Below, in pieces: positions 12,338-21,637 of a DNA stretch of 64,000 nucleotides. Position 1 is the first letter of the stretch. The number at the start of each line of letters is the position of its first letter. This stretch comes from Candidatus Melainabacteria bacterium (GTDB lineage: Bacteria > Cyanobacteriota > Vampirovibrionia > Obscuribacterales > Obscuribacteraceae). A program made the position numbers and the translations under genes. The notes below the pieces were generated by a model that searched no databases, had not been told where the DNA came from, and saw nothing but the letters and a program-made list of their open reading frames with translations. The stretch is from NCBI GenBank assembly GCA_013288645.1, contig JABDBL010000005.1, positions 1 to 64,000 of the forward strand. The letters are read 5' to 3'.

Positions 12338-12359
12338 AAATGGTAGAGGCGGCGAGAAT
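12338..12359. repeat. direct repeat of the tmRNA 3' end (att-like), distal copy
   Basis: aaatggtagaggcggcgagaat vs aaatggtggaggcggcgagaat at 16401-16422 (21/22). Confidence 0.75.
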
Positions 12360-12379
12360 TTTGAGTATCCATTAGTATG

Positions 12380-13246
12380 TTATGCAGTTTTTAGTTGGGA
12401 TAATAAAGATTCGAAGAATTGTTTTGACCAGACGTTTGTTGCCATAGGATCTTTTAGGAATGGCTGTATATCTTTTTGGGCTGCAGCGATATTTAACTCG
12501 GCAAATTTTTTTTGCAACAGCTCATGTAAATCTTTGGCGTGCATAGGCTTTTTGGCTGTCCATCCTCCAGACTGTCTAAGTCTTTGCTCTAAATGATTTA
12601 GATGTACAGGTGTACTGCGTCCAATAAACCAAACAAAATCATAATAGTCGCGCCCTTTTACTCTATTTTTCCAGCTTCTTTGAAGTATGGCGTGGATTTT
12701 ACCCGCAAATAAATCTGTTTCCTTATAACTTTTTACTGCAAAAGGAATTGGCTGCAAAAGTGTTTTTGCTTCTGTTTCGAAACCGCTTGGCGGATCTATA
12801 TCTACTTCGAGTTTGATACTCATAACTTTATTATTCTGAATCAATCCTAGCTTACTGCTAGGCACAGAAATTTTTAAAAGATGTTCTTTTGTTCCTGCTT
12901 TAACAAAAGCAGATTCAATAGGAGTTTGGACATTTTTATTTTTTCCTTCTACGTTTACATTGAAACCCATTCCATTAAGTTCAGCTTCTATGGCTTTTAA
13001 ATAAGGACTTAAACTGAAGTTCTTCTGTCGTTCTAAGAGCGAGAAATCTAAGTCTTCGGAAAAGCGATCAAGTTGATAGAGAATGCGCAGAGATGTGCCA
13101 CCATAAAAGGCAGCATGTTCAAAAAATTTGGATCGCCACAGTCCAAGAAGAGCTACTTCTTGCATAATTTCTTTGAGTGCGTTTTCATAGTCTTGTGTGC
13201 TTACGCATTTATAACGGGCTAACATGGACTCTATTGCCGGATTCAC
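12380..13246 (-). CDS. abiEii: AbiEii-type nucleotidyltransferase toxin
   Basis: FYGGTSLRILYQLDRFSEDLDFSLLE motif; ATGA-overlapping AbiEi partner. Confidence 0.85.
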   Translation of the reverse strand: MNPAIESMLARYKCVSTQDYENALKEIMQEVALLGLWRSKFFEHAAFYGGTSLRILYQLDRFSEDLDFSLLERQKNFSLSPYLKAIEAELNGMGFNVNVEGKNKNVQTPIESAFVKAGTKEHLLKISVPSSKLGLIQNNKVMSIKLEVDIDPPSGFETEAKTLLQPIPFAVKSYKETDLFAGKIHAILQRSWKNRVKGRDYYDFVWFIGRSTPVHLNHLEQRLRQSGGWTAKKPMHAKDLHELLQKKFAELNIAAAQKDIQPFLKDPMATNVWSKQFFESLLSQLKTA

Positions 13247-13875
13247 AGGACCTCCAAAATGCGTTCAATATTCTTGTTGCGGTAATACTTATTTAGTCTC
13301 CGTAAAACATCAGGATTGAATTGCTTCCACTTCTGCCGATCGATGCGCAGATCTGATTCAAGAAATTCTTGAATATCTAAATTTTGATCGTTTCTTATTT
13401 TATTGAGTACAATATAGTCACAAATAGCTTTTTCAGGCGATGCTATTAAAATAGGATGATGTGGATCGACCCAGATTTGTTCAATCCCGTGAGGATATTT
13501 TTCTGCTCCTAAGTAACGGTAATTGAATTGTCCTAATGGTGTATCGAACTCTTTGTCTCTATTGGGAGTAACACTGGTAATTATTTCGACACGCTCAGGT
13601 ATTAGCCGATGATAGGACAAAGCATACTCGAGTGAAATGCATGATGGTCCGTAGATAAGATTAGCGAGAACTTCCTTGCATATAGGAGCTTGATTATATT
13701 CTGGACTAAAAGTGTAAAGCCCCTTTTTGACGCGAATTATAACGCCGGCCTTGATTAGTTCATTGATCTTTTGTCGCACACCAGAATAGGAAGACAATGC
13801 ATCTGTAAGAAGCGTATAGTCAAACTCTTCGGAGGGAATGGTTTTTCTCAATTGAAACGTGTCTAATTTTGACAT
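13243..13875 (-). CDS. abiEi: AbiEi-type antitoxin/transcriptional regulator
   Basis: N-terminal winged-helix-like region, KGLYTFSPEYNQ, YIVLNKI; directly upstream of abiEii. ATG at 13875 preferred over the TTG at 13890. Confidence 0.75.
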   Translation of the reverse strand: MSKLDTFQLRKTIPSEEFDYTLLTDALSSYSGVRQKINELIKAGVIIRVKKGLYTFSPEYNQAPICKEVLANLIYGPSCISLEYALSYHRLIPERVEIITSVTPNRDKEFDTPLGQFNYRYLGAEKYPHGIEQIWVDPHHPILIASPEKAICDYIVLNKIRNDQNLDIQEFLESDLRIDRQKWKQFNPDVLRRLNKYYRNKNIERILEVL

Positions 13876-13883
13876 ATAATATT

Positions 13884-13973
13884 TAACCAATAAGTTAGAT
13901 ATATTCTAACATACTGGTTAAATATTTAGTAAATTCTAGCCAATAAGTTAACTAAAATCTAACATACTGGCTA
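13884..13973. promoter_or_regulatory. two tandem 37-bp imperfect inverted repeats, candidate AbiEi operator
   Basis: TAACCAATAAGTTAGATATATTCTAACATACTGGTTA (13884-13920) and TAGCCAATAAGTTAACTAAAATCTAACATACTGGCTA (13937-13973); outer arms covary. Confidence 0.75.
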
Positions 13974-13987
13974 AGTATGGTAAGCCT

Positions 13988-14191
13988 TTAAAACGAAGAT
14001 CGGTCCATTGCATCAAAAGTTTTGATTATTCTAGGTCTCAATAACGAAATACCAGATTCGGGCTCATTAAGGGGACGAACTTTATTTCTACGCACAAAAT
14101 CAACAGCTGCAACCGGCAAGGATACTTCTGCTGGTAGCCTGAAAATTATTCTAATAATCGGCTCATTTGTAGCTAAGCTAACAAGGCTCAT
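13988..14191 (-). CDS. hypothetical protein, small
   Basis: 67-aa ORF overlapping the end of the upstream ORF. Confidence 0.4.
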   Translation of the reverse strand: MSLVSLATNEPIIRIIFRLPAEVSLPVAAVDFVRRNKVRPLNEPESGISLLRPRIIKTFDAMDRSSF

Positions 14192-14553
14192 TAAACTGTC
14201 TTAGATTGAACAAATCCGGCAAAAACTACTTTTTCTGGTAAGAAATCATTTGCATCATAGTCAGTATAATAATCTGGTTTGCCATCAATAGTAAATGACA
14301 TAATGTGCTGCCAACCGTCAACAATCCAAGTTAGATAAATATCCCCGTTCGGTGTTAACCGCATCTTCGGTTGATCAAGATTTAAATGACTTGCACATTT
14401 GGACAAAAATTCTTTTGTGTTTTTAACAGCCAAATCTGAAGGCAGCGATTCATCTTCTTCCAGGTTGTCCTTCGCTTGCGACAAAATCAAATCAAGACCT
14501 TTGTAAATCTTGTTAACCCAATCATCGGATATTCGTTCTTTAATTGTGCTCAT
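14191..14553 (-). CDS. hypothetical protein
   Basis: 120-aa acidic ORF, ISDDWVNKIYKGLDLIL...WIVDGWQHIMSFTIDGKPDYY. Confidence 0.6.
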   Translation of the reverse strand: MSTIKERISDDWVNKIYKGLDLILSQAKDNLEEDESLPSDLAVKNTKEFLSKCASHLNLDQPKMRLTPNGDIYLTWIVDGWQHIMSFTIDGKPDYYTDYDANDFLPEKVVFAGFVQSKTV

Positions 14554-14799
14554 AATTTAATTTTATATTACTGGACGGTATTATGACATTATTGTGCATG
14601 ACTACTGGATGGACAAATAATAATGGATTGGCCCATGCCAAATCAAACAAACTTGGACATCAATTAGCTTGATGCGCGCATGTACGGCAATTGCAAGCAG
14701 TACAAATCCTAAATGAAAACCATACATTAATGATTACTGCGATACCCAAAGAATATTGTCGGGAATAAATGAAATGTACCGACGACGAGAGAAGCAGAT

Positions 14800-15882
14800 A
14801 TGTTTGAACGCTTTACCAAAAGAGCAATAAAAGTGAAAATACTGGCACAAGAAGAGGCTAGACGACTAGGTTATAAAACAGTCGGGACTGAGCATTTGCT
14901 GCTTGGACTGATAAGAGAAGGTTCTGGCATCGCTGCTCATACCTTGAAGAACGAAGGCGTAAAGCTGGTTGTTTGCCGAAAAAAGATAGAGGCAATAACA
15001 GGCCGGGGTAGTGACTTCCCAAATGACCTGCCTGACACAGAAGATAAATTTAACTGGGCGATCCACCGGGCAAGGACAGGAAAAAGTGGTGACTTCCCCA
15101 GCCAGCTCCAGCATCAAGAAACATCTTACCCAGAACCCTCAAAAGTTGTGTATTATAACTTCAACGAAGAAGCTAACGCAGCGATGAAGCTGGCTTCTAT
15201 GTTTGCAGAAAAGGGTCCGGGAGGTATTATCGATACGGAAGATCTCCTGGTCGGCATTTTGGAAATGCGTGATAATTCTGCCATCAAAGCACTGTGGCAA
15301 TGTGACGTAGATCCAGTTAAAATCTGTACCGAATTGATAGCCAAGACACTGGAACTCAAGGTAACTAGTGGTGTGAATAAACAAGAACTGGAAAGCAAAA
15401 TGGCACAGTTTGTTCGTCAGATATGGGAGTACGGGCTGATATTTTTGCTACTGGTGACAATCGGTATATATTTACTTTTCCCACATTTGCCTGGTCTTGT
15501 ATTCAGTGGCACGCTAGTAGATGCTTTCAAATTGGCCTTGATCATTTACCTTTGCGAATGGGTGATAACGCCACTGCTTGGCGTGATAACTGCACTTGGA
15601 CTATTATCTCAGTTTCGTTTAAAGCTTGAAGAGTTTAACGTCAAGCTCCTGAAACAAGGAGGCAAAAAAGACCATCGCTCCTGGAAATTAAAATTAGCAG
15701 TGCGATTTAGTATCTGTTTCTTTATTTCATTAGCTGCTTTTACCATAATTAGTAAGTTAGACGTTAGTATGTTGCGGATCAATTCTTTGTATGCTTCACT
15801 ATATGCGGCGGCCATCGTTGCAATAATCGCACTAGTTGAAGATCTGTTTTTCTTGGGAAGATCACGTAACAAGAAAGCTTGA
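14800..15882 (+). CDS. Clp N-terminal (Clp_N) domain protein with C-terminal transmembrane region, no AAA+ module
   Basis: MFERFTKRAIKVKILAQEEARRLGYKTVGTEHLLLGLIREGSGIAAHTLKNEGV; second Clp repeat ANAAMKLASMFAEKGPGGIIDTEDLLVGIL; then several hydrophobic helices. Confidence 0.85.
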   Translation: MFERFTKRAIKVKILAQEEARRLGYKTVGTEHLLLGLIREGSGIAAHTLKNEGVKLVVCRKKIEAITGRGSDFPNDLPDTEDKFNWAIHRARTGKSGDFPSQLQHQETSYPEPSKVVYYNFNEEANAAMKLASMFAEKGPGGIIDTEDLLVGILEMRDNSAIKALWQCDVDPVKICTELIAKTLELKVTSGVNKQELESKMAQFVRQIWEYGLIFLLLVTIGIYLLFPHLPGLVFSGTLVDAFKLALIIYLCEWVITPLLGVITALGLLSQFRLKLEEFNVKLLKQGGKKDHRSWKLKLAVRFSICFFISLAAFTIISKLDVSMLRINSLYASLYAAAIVAIIALVEDLFFLGRSRNKKA

Positions 15883-15917
15883 GATTACAGTCTAGCTTAG
15901 TATAAAGGATAATTATT

Positions 15918-16364
15918 GTGAGCATTTCGAAATCGCACGATGATGAACCGGACAAGCAAGAACTGACCCCAGAATTGCAATTGGAACCAGCCCATGGCGG
16001 CCCTGGCGGGACGGGTAAAACAGCCATCGGTGCTGGAACAGGTGGTGATGAACATAAACCCAAGCCTAAACCATCATCTATTCCGCGTAGCCCAAGATGG
16101 TTTACTATGATATTTCCGTTGGCTCAACTATGTATGAAAGCTTATCTATCAAGGTTGGCACCAAGCCGAGCACGAGCGTTCTGCAATAAGGCTAAGCTAA
16201 CGGATGATCAGCTTACAGTACTCCATCTGCGGTGGCATGTGAATCTTAATTTGGAATGGGCACATAAGATTAACGGAGACACCATTAAACATATTGCTAA
16301 TACTGAATCGCAAGTTGAAGAAGAGGCAGTCTGGAGATTATGTCTTTGCTTATGTCGACACTAA
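15918..16364 (+). CDS. hypothetical protein
   Basis: 148-aa ORF with low-complexity N-terminus. Confidence 0.4.
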   Translation: MSISKSHDDEPDKQELTPELQLEPAHGGPGGTGKTAIGAGTGGDEHKPKPKPSSIPRSPRWFTMIFPLAQLCMKAYLSRLAPSRARAFCNKAKLTDDQLTVLHLRWHVNLNLEWAHKINGDTIKHIANTESQVEEEAVWRLCLCLCRH

Positions 16365-16400
16365 GGTATCCAGCATCAGGGCTTTAAGTGTCATAGATAT

Positions 16401-16422
16401 AAATGGTGGAGGCGGCGAGAAT
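16401..16422. repeat. tmRNA 3'-end copy of the direct repeat (proximal att-like site)
   Basis: aaatggtggaggcggcgagaat; matches 12338-12359 at 21/22. Confidence 0.75.
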
Positions 16423-16798
16423 CGCACTCGCGTCCAAAGTAACCGAGAGGCAAATCACTACAAGCTTAGTTCAGTATTTATCCAGTTGCCTTGCGGCCCG
16501 CTGGTTTAGGTCTGAACGACCATCCGGGATTGCAATTGTGTCTTAGGACAAGCTATGAACTGCTAATTTCGCTTGTCAGCAACCACCATTTTTTACCTAA
16601 TGAATGCGGGTAGTCAGGCTCTCATTAAGTTTCGCGGCCTAAGGTTAAAGTTAGGCAGCCACGCGCTCAGCGCGTGGTGCGAAAGTCAAAGTGTTATCTT
16701 TGGCATTTATTGTTTTTTGCCCAGTTTTTTAACGCGGTTCTAAGCAACCTCGGCTTGCAACTTACCAAACAACCACCCTGTCGAATCTAAACGCCCCC
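16404..16798 (-). ncRNA. ssrA: transfer-messenger RNA (tmRNA)
   Basis: 5' GGGGGCGTTTAGATTCGACAGGG; 3' ...CGATTCTCGCCGCCTCCACCA; 7-bp acceptor pairing; tag frame 16704-16651 encodes AKDNTLTFAPRAERVAA-stop. Confidence 0.93.
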
Positions 16799-18991: not shown

Positions 18992-19048
18992 TGCCGAAGG
19001 TCGGACTTGAACCGACATGAGGGGTAAACCTCGGTTGATTTTGAGTCA
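18992..19048 (-). repeat. tRNA-Leu(CAA) 3'-half copy A (att-like)
   Basis: 57/57 identical to 21553-21609. Confidence 0.95.
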
Positions 19049-19174
19049 TCTATAGTGTACGGACATTATCTGCTATTGAGAATATAGTTGCTTCCAATGA
19101 TACCGTGCATTACATTTGTATGGTATAATAGATAGCCATTGGAAAACTCGATATGAACCGTTTGCAACGATTTC

Positions 19175-19203
19175 TTGACTTGGTACTCAATTTTGAGTAC
19201 TAT
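19175..19203 (+). promoter_or_regulatory. higBA promoter with operator palindrome
   Basis: TTGACT (19175-19180), 17-bp spacer, TACTAT (19198-19203); perfect GTACTCAA-TT-TTGAGTAC at 19183-19200. Confidence 0.6.
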
Positions 19204-19221
19204 CTAGAATAGGGGGTATGA

Positions 19222-19515
19222 ATGAAAGTGGTGGGTGAGGATAGTTTAAAAGACTATGCAAAATTACATCATAATGTCACTGCACCAATTGCTCGCTGGT
19301 TAAAGTTAACCAAGGCGGCAAGTTGGAAAAATCTCCATGATATAAAACATCATTTTCCAACAGTAGACTACATTCCTCAGAATCAATACTGTTTCAATAT
19401 TGGTGGCAACAATTATAGGTTAATCTCTGTTATCTCTTTTCAGTTAGGTGTAGTTACAGTTTTGGATATCATGACCCATGCTGAGTATACAAAAAAGAAG
19501 TTAAAATTTAGATGA
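19222..19515 (+). CDS. higB: HigB-type mRNA interferase toxin
   Basis: NIGGNNYRLISVISFQLGVVTVLDIMTHAEY; followed by HTH antitoxin. Confidence 0.85.
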   Translation: MKVVGEDSLKDYAKLHHNVTAPIARWLKLTKAASWKNLHDIKHHFPTVDYIPQNQYCFNIGGNNYRLISVISFQLGVVTVLDIMTHAEYTKKKLKFR

Positions 19516-19530
19516 GGTAAAGGCTGAGTA

Positions 19531-19950
19531 ATGAACGCAAAATATATGAAATTAGTAACACGTTGTCCGCTGCTACCAATTACTAGCAAAAGGATGCATG
19601 CCAGCGCCAAAAAAATGATGATTGAACTTACCAAAAAAGATGGGGAATTGTCAGTTGCAGAAATAGGATACGGAAAAGTTTTAACGCAACTGATAGAAAA
19701 TTATGAGCAACAATTAGTTGGTGATTTTTTTGAGGATGTAAGCGGCGAGGATGTGCTTGAATATTTTTGTAATGAGCACCAATTAAAGCAATCTGAAGTA
19801 GCAGCTATTGCCGGTATCTCAAAACAAAACTTAAATGATTATCTCAAGGGACGCAGAGGGCTTTCTAAAAAAGCATGCGTGCGGTTGGCAGCACATTTTA
19901 AATTAAACCCAGAAGTATTTTACTCAATGAAAGAGCTAGAAGTTGCCTAA
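19531..19950 (+). CDS. higA: HigA-type HTH antitoxin
   Basis: C-terminal HTH EYFCNEHQLKQSEVAAIAGISKQNLNDYLKGRRGLSKKACVRLAAHF. Confidence 0.85.
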   Translation: MNAKYMKLVTRCPLLPITSKRMHASAKKMMIELTKKDGELSVAEIGYGKVLTQLIENYEQQLVGDFFEDVSGEDVLEYFCNEHQLKQSEVAAIAGISKQNLNDYLKGRRGLSKKACVRLAAHFKLNPEVFYSMKELEVA

Positions 19951-19957
19951 TTTAATT

Positions 19958-20014
19958 TGCCGAAGGTCGGACTTGGACCGACATGAGGGGTAAACCTCGG
20001 ATGATTTTGAGTCA
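19958..20014 (-). repeat. tRNA-Leu(CAA) 3'-half copy B (att-like)
   Basis: 55/57 identical to 21553-21609. Confidence 0.95.
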
Positions 20015-20076
20015 TATATAGCGTGGGAGTGTTGTATGCTGCTGACAACTAGTTTTAGCATGAAGATAAATTCAGA

Positions 20077-20559
20077 TCACGAGACATTGCCATTCCTGCG
20101 TTTTATTTCAGCGTCAATTTCTTCGCGCGTGATTTTAAATCGTGACAGCAATTGCTGATCATCTTTTGTCCATGGCTTACCATCCAAGCTTCTCTCTCCG
20201 AAGTCAGCTAAACAAGCGGCTCGTCTATTCTCTTCACCCCTAGTAACTATTTGACTATAGGAATCTATCTCTTCGCGAGATAAATTAAAACGTTGAGCCA
20301 CTCGCAAGGCATCCTCTAGCCACGATTCTCCTTTGGCTAATTTGCTTTCCACAATATCGGCTAGCTTTCTGGCTGCCTTGGTTCCCTCTTTGCTAGAAAA
20401 CAAACAGCCCATTAAATACCGATGTCTTCCTTTCGACATTCCTCCATCGCCATAACCTAATTTCGTTTGGATTGGAGGGAAGGATCCGCCTGATGATTCG
20501 GTTTGAGTTTTAGGTTCTATATGTTCTTCGCCGTTAGGCTTCTCATTTTCAGCTGTCAT
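20077..20559 (-). CDS. hypothetical protein, sole ORF of the middle cassette
   Basis: 160-aa ORF with two similar halves (RFNLSREEIDSYSQ / RFKITREEIDAEIK). Confidence 0.6.
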   Translation of the reverse strand: MTAENEKPNGEEHIEPKTQTESSGGSFPPIQTKLGYGDGGMSKGRHRYLMGCLFSSKEGTKAARKLADIVESKLAKGESWLEDALRVAQRFNLSREEIDSYSQIVTRGEENRRAACLADFGERSLDGKPWTKDDQQLLSRFKITREEIDAEIKRRNGNVS

Positions 20560-20671
20560 AATAACCTATACTATGTGGTGGATGGCGCTATTGTATAATG
20601 CCCATTTTTCTGCGACATAAATCTGCAGACGTTCTGAGCATTATTTAAAGTGATGTAGGAAGAAAAAAACT

Positions 20672-20721
20672 GTCGAAGATCGGACTTGAACCCACATGCG
20701 GAGTAAATGATCTTGAGTCAT
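20672..20721 (-). repeat. tRNA-Leu 3'-half copy C, decayed
   Basis: tgtcgaagatcggacttgaacccacatgcggagtaaatgatcttgagtca aligns to 21553-21609 with several mismatches and about 7 bp deleted. Confidence 0.85.
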
Positions 20722-20777
20722 TGTGTAATGATATCAAAGACTTAGTCAAGAATACATTTCAAACAATACTTATTCTA

Positions 20778-21086
20778 TTAATTAGCCCGTTCGTAAAACA
20801 CGATGCCAACTCGTTTTATATGGTCGCGCAGGTCGGCATTTTCAAGTTCATCGAAAAGTGAAAGGTCAATGGTGTAGGGCAGAAGAAGATCATCGACTGC
20901 TTCCACTATATCTGTACGCAGTTCGGGAGTGAGTGCTGTGCCATATAGCGTCAAATCAATATCGGATCCAGCTTTATAATTACCTTTTGCTCGCGAACCG
21001 TACAAAATAGCCTTTTCAATTTCAGGAAAACGTGTAAAAACACTGCAGATCTTTTCAATGACTTTTTGGGTCAGTCCATACTTCAT
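20778..21086 (-). CDS. MNT-type nucleotidyltransferase (antitoxin of MNT/HEPN pair)
   Basis: ILYGSRAKGNYKAGSDIDLTLYG. Confidence 0.88.
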   Translation of the reverse strand: MKYGLTQKVIEKICSVFTRFPEIEKAILYGSRAKGNYKAGSDIDLTLYGTALTPELRTDIVEAVDDLLLPYTIDLSLFDELENADLRDHIKRVGIVFYERAN

Positions 21087-21508
21087 AACTTGCTGTCTTG
21101 CTGCTCGTAAAGTGCAGTAAACTTTTTTGCCATACTCATAAATGCTGGATAAAAGTTCTCCAAGATGTTGTGCACTATTTTATCGGCTACAGCAGTATTG
21201 TAGGTATGTGATGTCTGGTTACGAGCAGTTATCATATCCATCCACTGCTCGCCTTGCTCTAGCAGGCCATTTTTAAACGCCTCGCGGGTAGCATCTTTTG
21301 AGCCGATCAAACCGACAATGCCCTTATCTTCCAAATAATCCTTGAGGACATTCCAGGCTAATTCATGCGTGAACTCAAAACTTTGAATTAAGCCTTGTTG
21401 TTCCAACTTTGTCAGAGGGCGTTCTTCGGACAGTGCCTTCGCCTCACTTAAATTTTGCAGGGCTTTACTATAGTTGCTAAATCGCTGTTTCCAACGGACA
21501 TCGTGCAT
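21083..21508 (-). CDS. HEPN-fold nucleotidyltransferase substrate-binding protein, HI0074 family (candidate toxin)
   Basis: SFEFTHELAWNVLKDYLE, DMITARNQTSHTYN; ATGA overlap with the MNT gene. Confidence 0.85.
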   Translation of the reverse strand: MHDVRWKQRFSNYSKALQNLSEAKALSEERPLTKLEQQGLIQSFEFTHELAWNVLKDYLEDKGIVGLIGSKDATREAFKNGLLEQGEQWMDMITARNQTSHTYNTAVADKIVHNILENFYPAFMSMAKKFTALYEQQDSKL

Positions 21509-21552
21509 AGTCTAAACCACAGCTATAATAAAAGAGGTGTTAGGTAAAAATT

Positions 21553-21637
21553 TGCCGAAGGTCGGACTTGAACCGACATGAGGGGTAAACCTCGGTTGAT
21601 TTTGAGTCAACTGCGTCTGCCATTTCGCCACTTCGGC
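21553..21637 (-). tRNA. tRNA-Leu (anticodon CAA)
   Basis: GCCGAAG...CTTCGGC acceptor; anticodon arm GTTGA-CTCAAAA-TCAAC; long variable arm; GGTTCAAGTCC T-arm; CCA not encoded. Confidence 0.95.

Follow-up and report, generated by a model that had tools for sequence, protein, structure and literature searches.

What placed an AbiE toxin-antitoxin (TA) gene pair between the tmRNA gene, ssrA, and a second copy of that gene's 3' end, and how the enclosed DNA could have moved while encoding no integrase, are the questions raised by one segment in the DNA of a Candidatus Melainabacteria bacterium of the family Obscuribacteraceae. The whole stretch analyzed, 64 kb in length, is called the window here, and positions are counted from its first letter. 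The answer draws on the segment itself, on the ssrA neighborhoods of related genomes, and on the RNA genes beside which similar units and integrases are found.

The segment between the two cores and its genes

A 22-nt core stands at each end of the segment, with 4,041 bp between the two copies (Table 1). The initial annotation had described the tmRNA 3' end as repeated at the far end of a roughly 4-kb island, and this proved correct, the far copy being a single extra one in the same orientation. Frequent occurrence of the match elsewhere, which had been named as counting against an island, was not found: the 64-kb window holds no further copy of the tmRNA terminal 22-mer at up to four mismatches, and the 2.78-Mb assembly, which is 72% complete and in 87 contigs, holds no further 19-mer core at up to one mismatch. 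At 39% GC, the segment does not stand out from the rest of the window. Degenerate cores at internal module boundaries were considered as module borders and dropped because their best matches scored no better than shuffled sequences.

Table 1. Features of the segment, its flank and the nearby tRNA-Leu units, in window coordinates
Feature	Position	Strand	Evidence or remark
Flank left of 12338, reads TTTTTATTTTGTGGACAG...; thioredoxin-like and CheA genes			
Second core copy, far island end	12338..12359	-	21/22 against 16401-16422, direct orientation
abiEii, type IV TA toxin, nucleotidyltransferase family, 288 aa	12380..13246	-	Pfam AbiEii 7e-30; PADLOC AbiEii 1.6e-110
abiEi, antitoxin, up to 215 aa	13243..13890	-	PADLOC AbiEi 4.2e-63
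Putative AbiEi operator ahead of abiEi, two inverted repeats of type TTAACCAATAAGTTAG...CTAACATACTGGTTAA	13886..13985	.	Direct sequence reading
67-aa ORF (p67)	13988..14191	-	
p120, 120-aa hypothetical protein	14191..14553	-	85% identical in G001
360-aa membrane protein, Clp_N domain	14800..15882	+	Pfam Clp_N 2.5e-15
148-aa hypothetical protein, adjoins ssrA	15918..16364	+	
attL-like core at ssrA 3' end, ATTCTCGCCGCCTCCACCA + TTT, first base in T-loop	16401..16422	-	
ssrA (tmRNA gene, intact)	16404..16798	-	ARAGORN; Rfam RF00023 139.5 bits, E 1.5e-54
tRNA-Leu unit: HigBA pair	19222-19950		
tRNA-Leu unit: 160-aa ORF	20077-20559		
tRNA-Leu unit: HepT/MNT-type pair	20778-21508		

The gene content first named for the segment was also confirmed, namely abiEi and abiEii, two small ORFs, a membrane protein with a Clp_N domain and a 148-aa ORF. 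Judged from family profiles, the identity of AbiEi and AbiEii as an AbiE pair is firm, and the layout is that of a type IV TA system, a nucleotidyltransferase, AbiEii, adjoining AbiEi. The antitoxin has further matches in NCBIfam (TAA_AbiEi, 2e-11, below the cut-off) and in the PDB (AbiEi-like 6y8q, E 0.0018), and an alternative start is possible at the ATG at 13875. AbiEi is likely an autorepressor; the inverted repeats before its gene look like autorepression sites, and a similar sequence lies in the corresponding region of G001, the only congener in our sample. AbiE is known as a type IV TA system that also acts in abortive infection (PMC7725324 for Serratia), with which the window shares the AbiEi plus AbiEii gene pair, although the pair described here is of predicted activity and lies inside an ssrA island of a Melainabacteria lineage. 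The pair may offer protection against phage, and we infer that it stabilizes the island. AbiEii relatives were found on 32 other GTDB contigs, 31 of which, from several phyla, carry the same abiEi-abiEii pair; the pair thus travels together, but without p120, p67 or ssrA, and on one contig it lies by a tRNA cluster.

The remaining genes are less readily classed. The frame homologous to p67 has 155 aa in G001, being either shortened in the window or extended in the congener, and p120 has no family match in Pfam, PADLOC, PHROGs or NCBIfam. Over its first 73 aa, the Clp_N protein shares 67% identity with the beginning of an 863-aa frame from another part of the genome; from its size, this frame is presumably the host's own Clp ATPase.

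Among the island ORFs, no integrase was found with Pfam or PHROGs, no remnant of one by tblastn, and no serine recombinase domain with Pfam. Because no integrase lies inside, the window island is classed as an island remnant or a non-autonomous island and not as a complete integrative element. The original claim of a missing integrase therefore holds for the island, but does not extend to the organism, since the assembly is incomplete and fragmented and its contig C35 carries a 57%-identical relative of ssrA integrases beside tRNA-His.

ssrA as an island hotspot in the family

In a survey of 50 genomes of Obscuribacteraceae, the window's included, the core was present in 38, with its 19 nt exact in 36 and one mismatch in two. 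An extra core lies downstream of ssrA in 12 of the 50 (again including the window), always in direct orientation and 2.7-11.8 kb away, and a reversed control pattern gave no matches. One genome, G027, has two extra cores, which brings the bracketed ssrA islands to 13; the downstream copy in G009 has two mismatches. The integration target is the 3' end of ssrA, as had been proposed from the window, and ssrA is a real island hotspot.

Most ssrA islands of the family contain a tyrosine integrase or its remains, oriented toward ssrA, and a small excisionase-like HTH gene beside it. This integrase is intact in the islands of G035, G021 and G071, interrupted by stops in G027, G013 and G069, reduced to a 95-aa fragment in G023 and to a remnant of 65-71 aa in G010, and missing from the islands of G009, G025, G015 and the window. 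Intact copies also adjoin ssrA near contig ends in G002 and in G034. Since the integrases of related islands are found intact, with stops, as fragments or not at all, the absence in the window looks like loss, and such loss fits better than an integrase-free strategy. Stranding fits as well, because no ssrA-type integrase of at least 80% identity is encoded elsewhere in the genomes whose islands lack one (the window genome being only 72% complete). For the family as a whole, the simplest reading is that integrases were lost after integration and that the islands were then stranded.

The inner 150-bp att arms are clearly related in 11 of the 13 islands, the exceptions being the window and G015. 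Compared with the family consensus, the window arms score 25 and 19, where the 95th percentiles of shuffled sequences are 34 and 31, and comparison with three other ssrA islands, with the tRNA-His and tRNA-Thr elements and with G015 gave nothing above shuffles. Because the arms match neither the consensus nor the other elements tried, they point to no cognate integrase for the window island. The G015 island resembles it further in having no integrase and in carrying a TA-like gene (Fic). TA-like cargo is also present in the islands of G009 (AbiE) and G010 (HigBA), and PIN-like proteins occur in those of G013 and G023 and, by similarity, of G027 and G069. The viral collection searched contained no exact attachment core, and its integrases were only 25-26% identical, so that no phage origin is indicated.

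Taken together, it is probable that the 4.04-kb segment is an ssrA genomic island whose integrase has since been lost and which, being stranded, has been kept by AbiE. Site-specific recombination within the T-loop portion of ssrA would have brought the island in, and this entry would have regenerated an intact tmRNA gene and left a copy of its last 22 nt at the far end. Loss of the integrase gene, presumably after rather than before integration, would then have stranded the island. The AbiEi/AbiEii pair would hold it in place, would probably also give abortive-infection defense, and may repress itself via the inverted repeats in front of abiEi.

A close precedent is known from Dehalococcoides, in which islands lie downstream of ssrA, often in tandem, between direct repeats of 20 bp that correspond to its 3' end, and are inserted at the T-loop; islands without an integration module have also been described there and discussed as possible cis-mobilizable elements (PMC3146451). 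The two cases share the ssrA 3'-end direct repeats, the T-loop insertion and the existence of module-less islands. They differ in that the recombinase of Dehalococcoides is a serine enzyme (DsiB, CcrB-like), whereas relatives of the window island encode a tyrosine integrase and the window island none, and in that reductive dehalogenases are the cargo there and AbiE here. In tRNA and tmRNA islands as far as they are characterized in the Islander description (PMC4383910), the target gene is likewise regenerated by island sequence and a displaced 3' fragment marks the other end, but integration is catalyzed by tyrosine integrases, none of which is encoded in the window island. The latter adds one more example to a class of elements already known and is ordinary in itself. 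Of wider relevance are the finding that ssrA is a hotspot for islands in a Melainabacteria family that has been little studied, and the gradation among related islands from those with an intact integrase to those with none.

Two further loci of the family were observed. The integrase-less ssrA island of G009 (L035:4756-6964) carries a different AbiEi/AbiEii pair, in which AbiEii is a fusion with a WYL domain and a zinc-ribbon-like tail. In G064 (L153:3258-10536), no tmRNA was detected around an island that encodes an integrase and is flanked by two core-like copies; this locus may be a secondary attachment site.

The congener and the age of the repeat

After ssrA, G001 has p120, the p67 homolog, AbiEi and AbiEii, ordered as they are in the window, and this 96%-complete genome has no second core anywhere. 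The same genes in the same place without the repeat had been named at the outset as evidence against an island, and exactly this is seen in G001, by which the case for 12338 as the bound of a simple recent insertion is weakened. The two loci are not identical: the Clp_N and 148-aa genes, situated between ssrA and p120, are specific to the window and absent from the G001 locus, and in G001 different genes separate the p67 homolog from AbiEi. G001 contains no ortholog of the thioredoxin-like and CheA flank left of 12338. The homologous stretch stops roughly 20 nt before the 12338 repeat, with ssrA as the bound on the other side, and the repeat therefore coincides with a boundary. No empty site was found for the window lineage, G001 being occupied and different in its downstream flank. 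Post-attR sequences in other genera were considered as empty sites and set aside as ambiguous, as they may be arms of tandem islands. Despite G001, the family-wide pattern favors an island.

It is conceivable, though unlikely, that the segment is instead an old resident, AbiE having been downstream of ssrA in the ancestor of the genus and later rearrangements having made the flanks differ. Such an origin would agree with the shared order and place of the four genes and with the four-fold site divergence between the window and G001, which is as large for AbiE (0.60) as for prmA, glpK and an abhydrolase gene (0.59-0.64). However, four-fold sites are near saturation at these values, so that the AbiE split is not datable from them, and p120 is less diverged (0.31 at 35 four-fold sites). 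Moreover, a neutral 22-nt repeat as old as the AbiE split would by our own arithmetic retain about 9 of 22 identities, against the 21 observed, unless conversion with ssrA maintains it. Either the window integration is younger than the AbiE split, the two genomes having separately acquired related islands, or such conversion has preserved the copy. At the protein level the AbiE pair is 81-83% identical between the two genomes, and AbiEii, at 83%, is under purifying selection, as its amino-acid conservation is high while its synonymous divergence is high as well.

Decidedly unlikely is movement of the segment as a non-autonomous, integrase-free unit, comparable to cis-mobilizable elements or cassettes, with the integrase of another element acting in trans on the core alone. 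An att pair much younger than the AbiE split, or maintained, would be in keeping with it, as would the two islands without arms and integrase but with TA-like genes (window and G015), the perfect cores kept by the islands of G025 and G023 despite a missing or broken integrase, and the tRNA-His-linked integrase relative in the window genome. Against it stand the lack of an ssrA-type integrase of at least 80% identity in the genomes concerned (that of the window only 72% complete), the window arms, which match neither resident relative, and the graded series of broken integrases, which shows that loss happens. A generalized form appears improbable, in which trans-acting integrases serve a cassette-like system and place small integrase-free units, alone or in tandem arrays, at ssrA and at tRNA genes, each unit holding scarcely anything beyond a TA module and a duplicate of the RNA gene's 3' end. 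That the repeat reflects chance or a duplication artefact unrelated to integration is very hard to believe: all that speaks for it is the failure to recover an empty site and the missing repeat in one congener, but a 22-mer with at most one mismatch is expected by chance only about 5e-7 times on both strands of 64 kb (own arithmetic), and the same geometry recurs in 11 other genomes of the family, with shared arms and integrases there. An island that lost its integrase thus remains the preferred reading.

Other RNA genes with 3'-end copies or related integrases

The initial annotation had placed two integrase-less TA islands at RNA genes within the window. The ssrA island stands, but the second site comprises three units and not one island. 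At 18992-21637, tRNA-Leu(CAA) is followed by three more direct copies of its last 55-57 nt (at 20671, 19958 and 18992), and the four copies bracket three units of 0.7-1.0 kb each, all without an integrase (Table 1), which looks like tandem insertion of single modules. The same tRNA-Leu in G001 (L031:2320-3324) has one extra 3'-end copy and encloses an integrase-less unit of 0.92 kb, whose HepT/MNT pair is 75-87% identical. In G025, which belongs to another genus, tRNA-Leu likewise has one extra 3'-end copy (L143:10597-11768); the unit of 1.09 kb has no integrase and encodes a nucleotidyltransferase-like protein and a 106-aa protein.

The repeat starts in the T-loop at ssrA (22 nt) and in the anticodon loop at tRNA-Leu (about 55 nt), and these different crossover positions favor two enzymes. 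For this reason, and because the ssrA islands of relatives encode their own tyrosine integrase, the idea of one mobilization strategy reused at different RNA genes was not sustained. A weaker form of reuse survives, concerning the integrase family and not an integrase-free strategy. Relatives of the ssrA integrases, at 45-60% identity, lie beside tRNA-His in the window genome (G000), G066, G018 and G002, beside tRNA-Thr in G015 and G066, and beside tRNA-Ser in G025. In the integrase tree, many forks of which are weakly supported, the ssrA-linked copies form two groups apart from the tRNA-linked ones. It is thereby supported that one integrase family has been retargeted from RNA gene to RNA gene, the elements involved carrying the integrase gene themselves. 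As this tyrosine-integrase family adjoins RNA genes of at least four kinds (ssrA, tRNA-His, tRNA-Thr and tRNA-Ser), change of integrase target becomes testable within one family.

Directly downstream of tRNA-His in the window genome (L072:4164-8885) is a full-length integrase related to those at ssrA, and two ORFs beside it look like a single split replication gene, possibly of the primase/helicase type.
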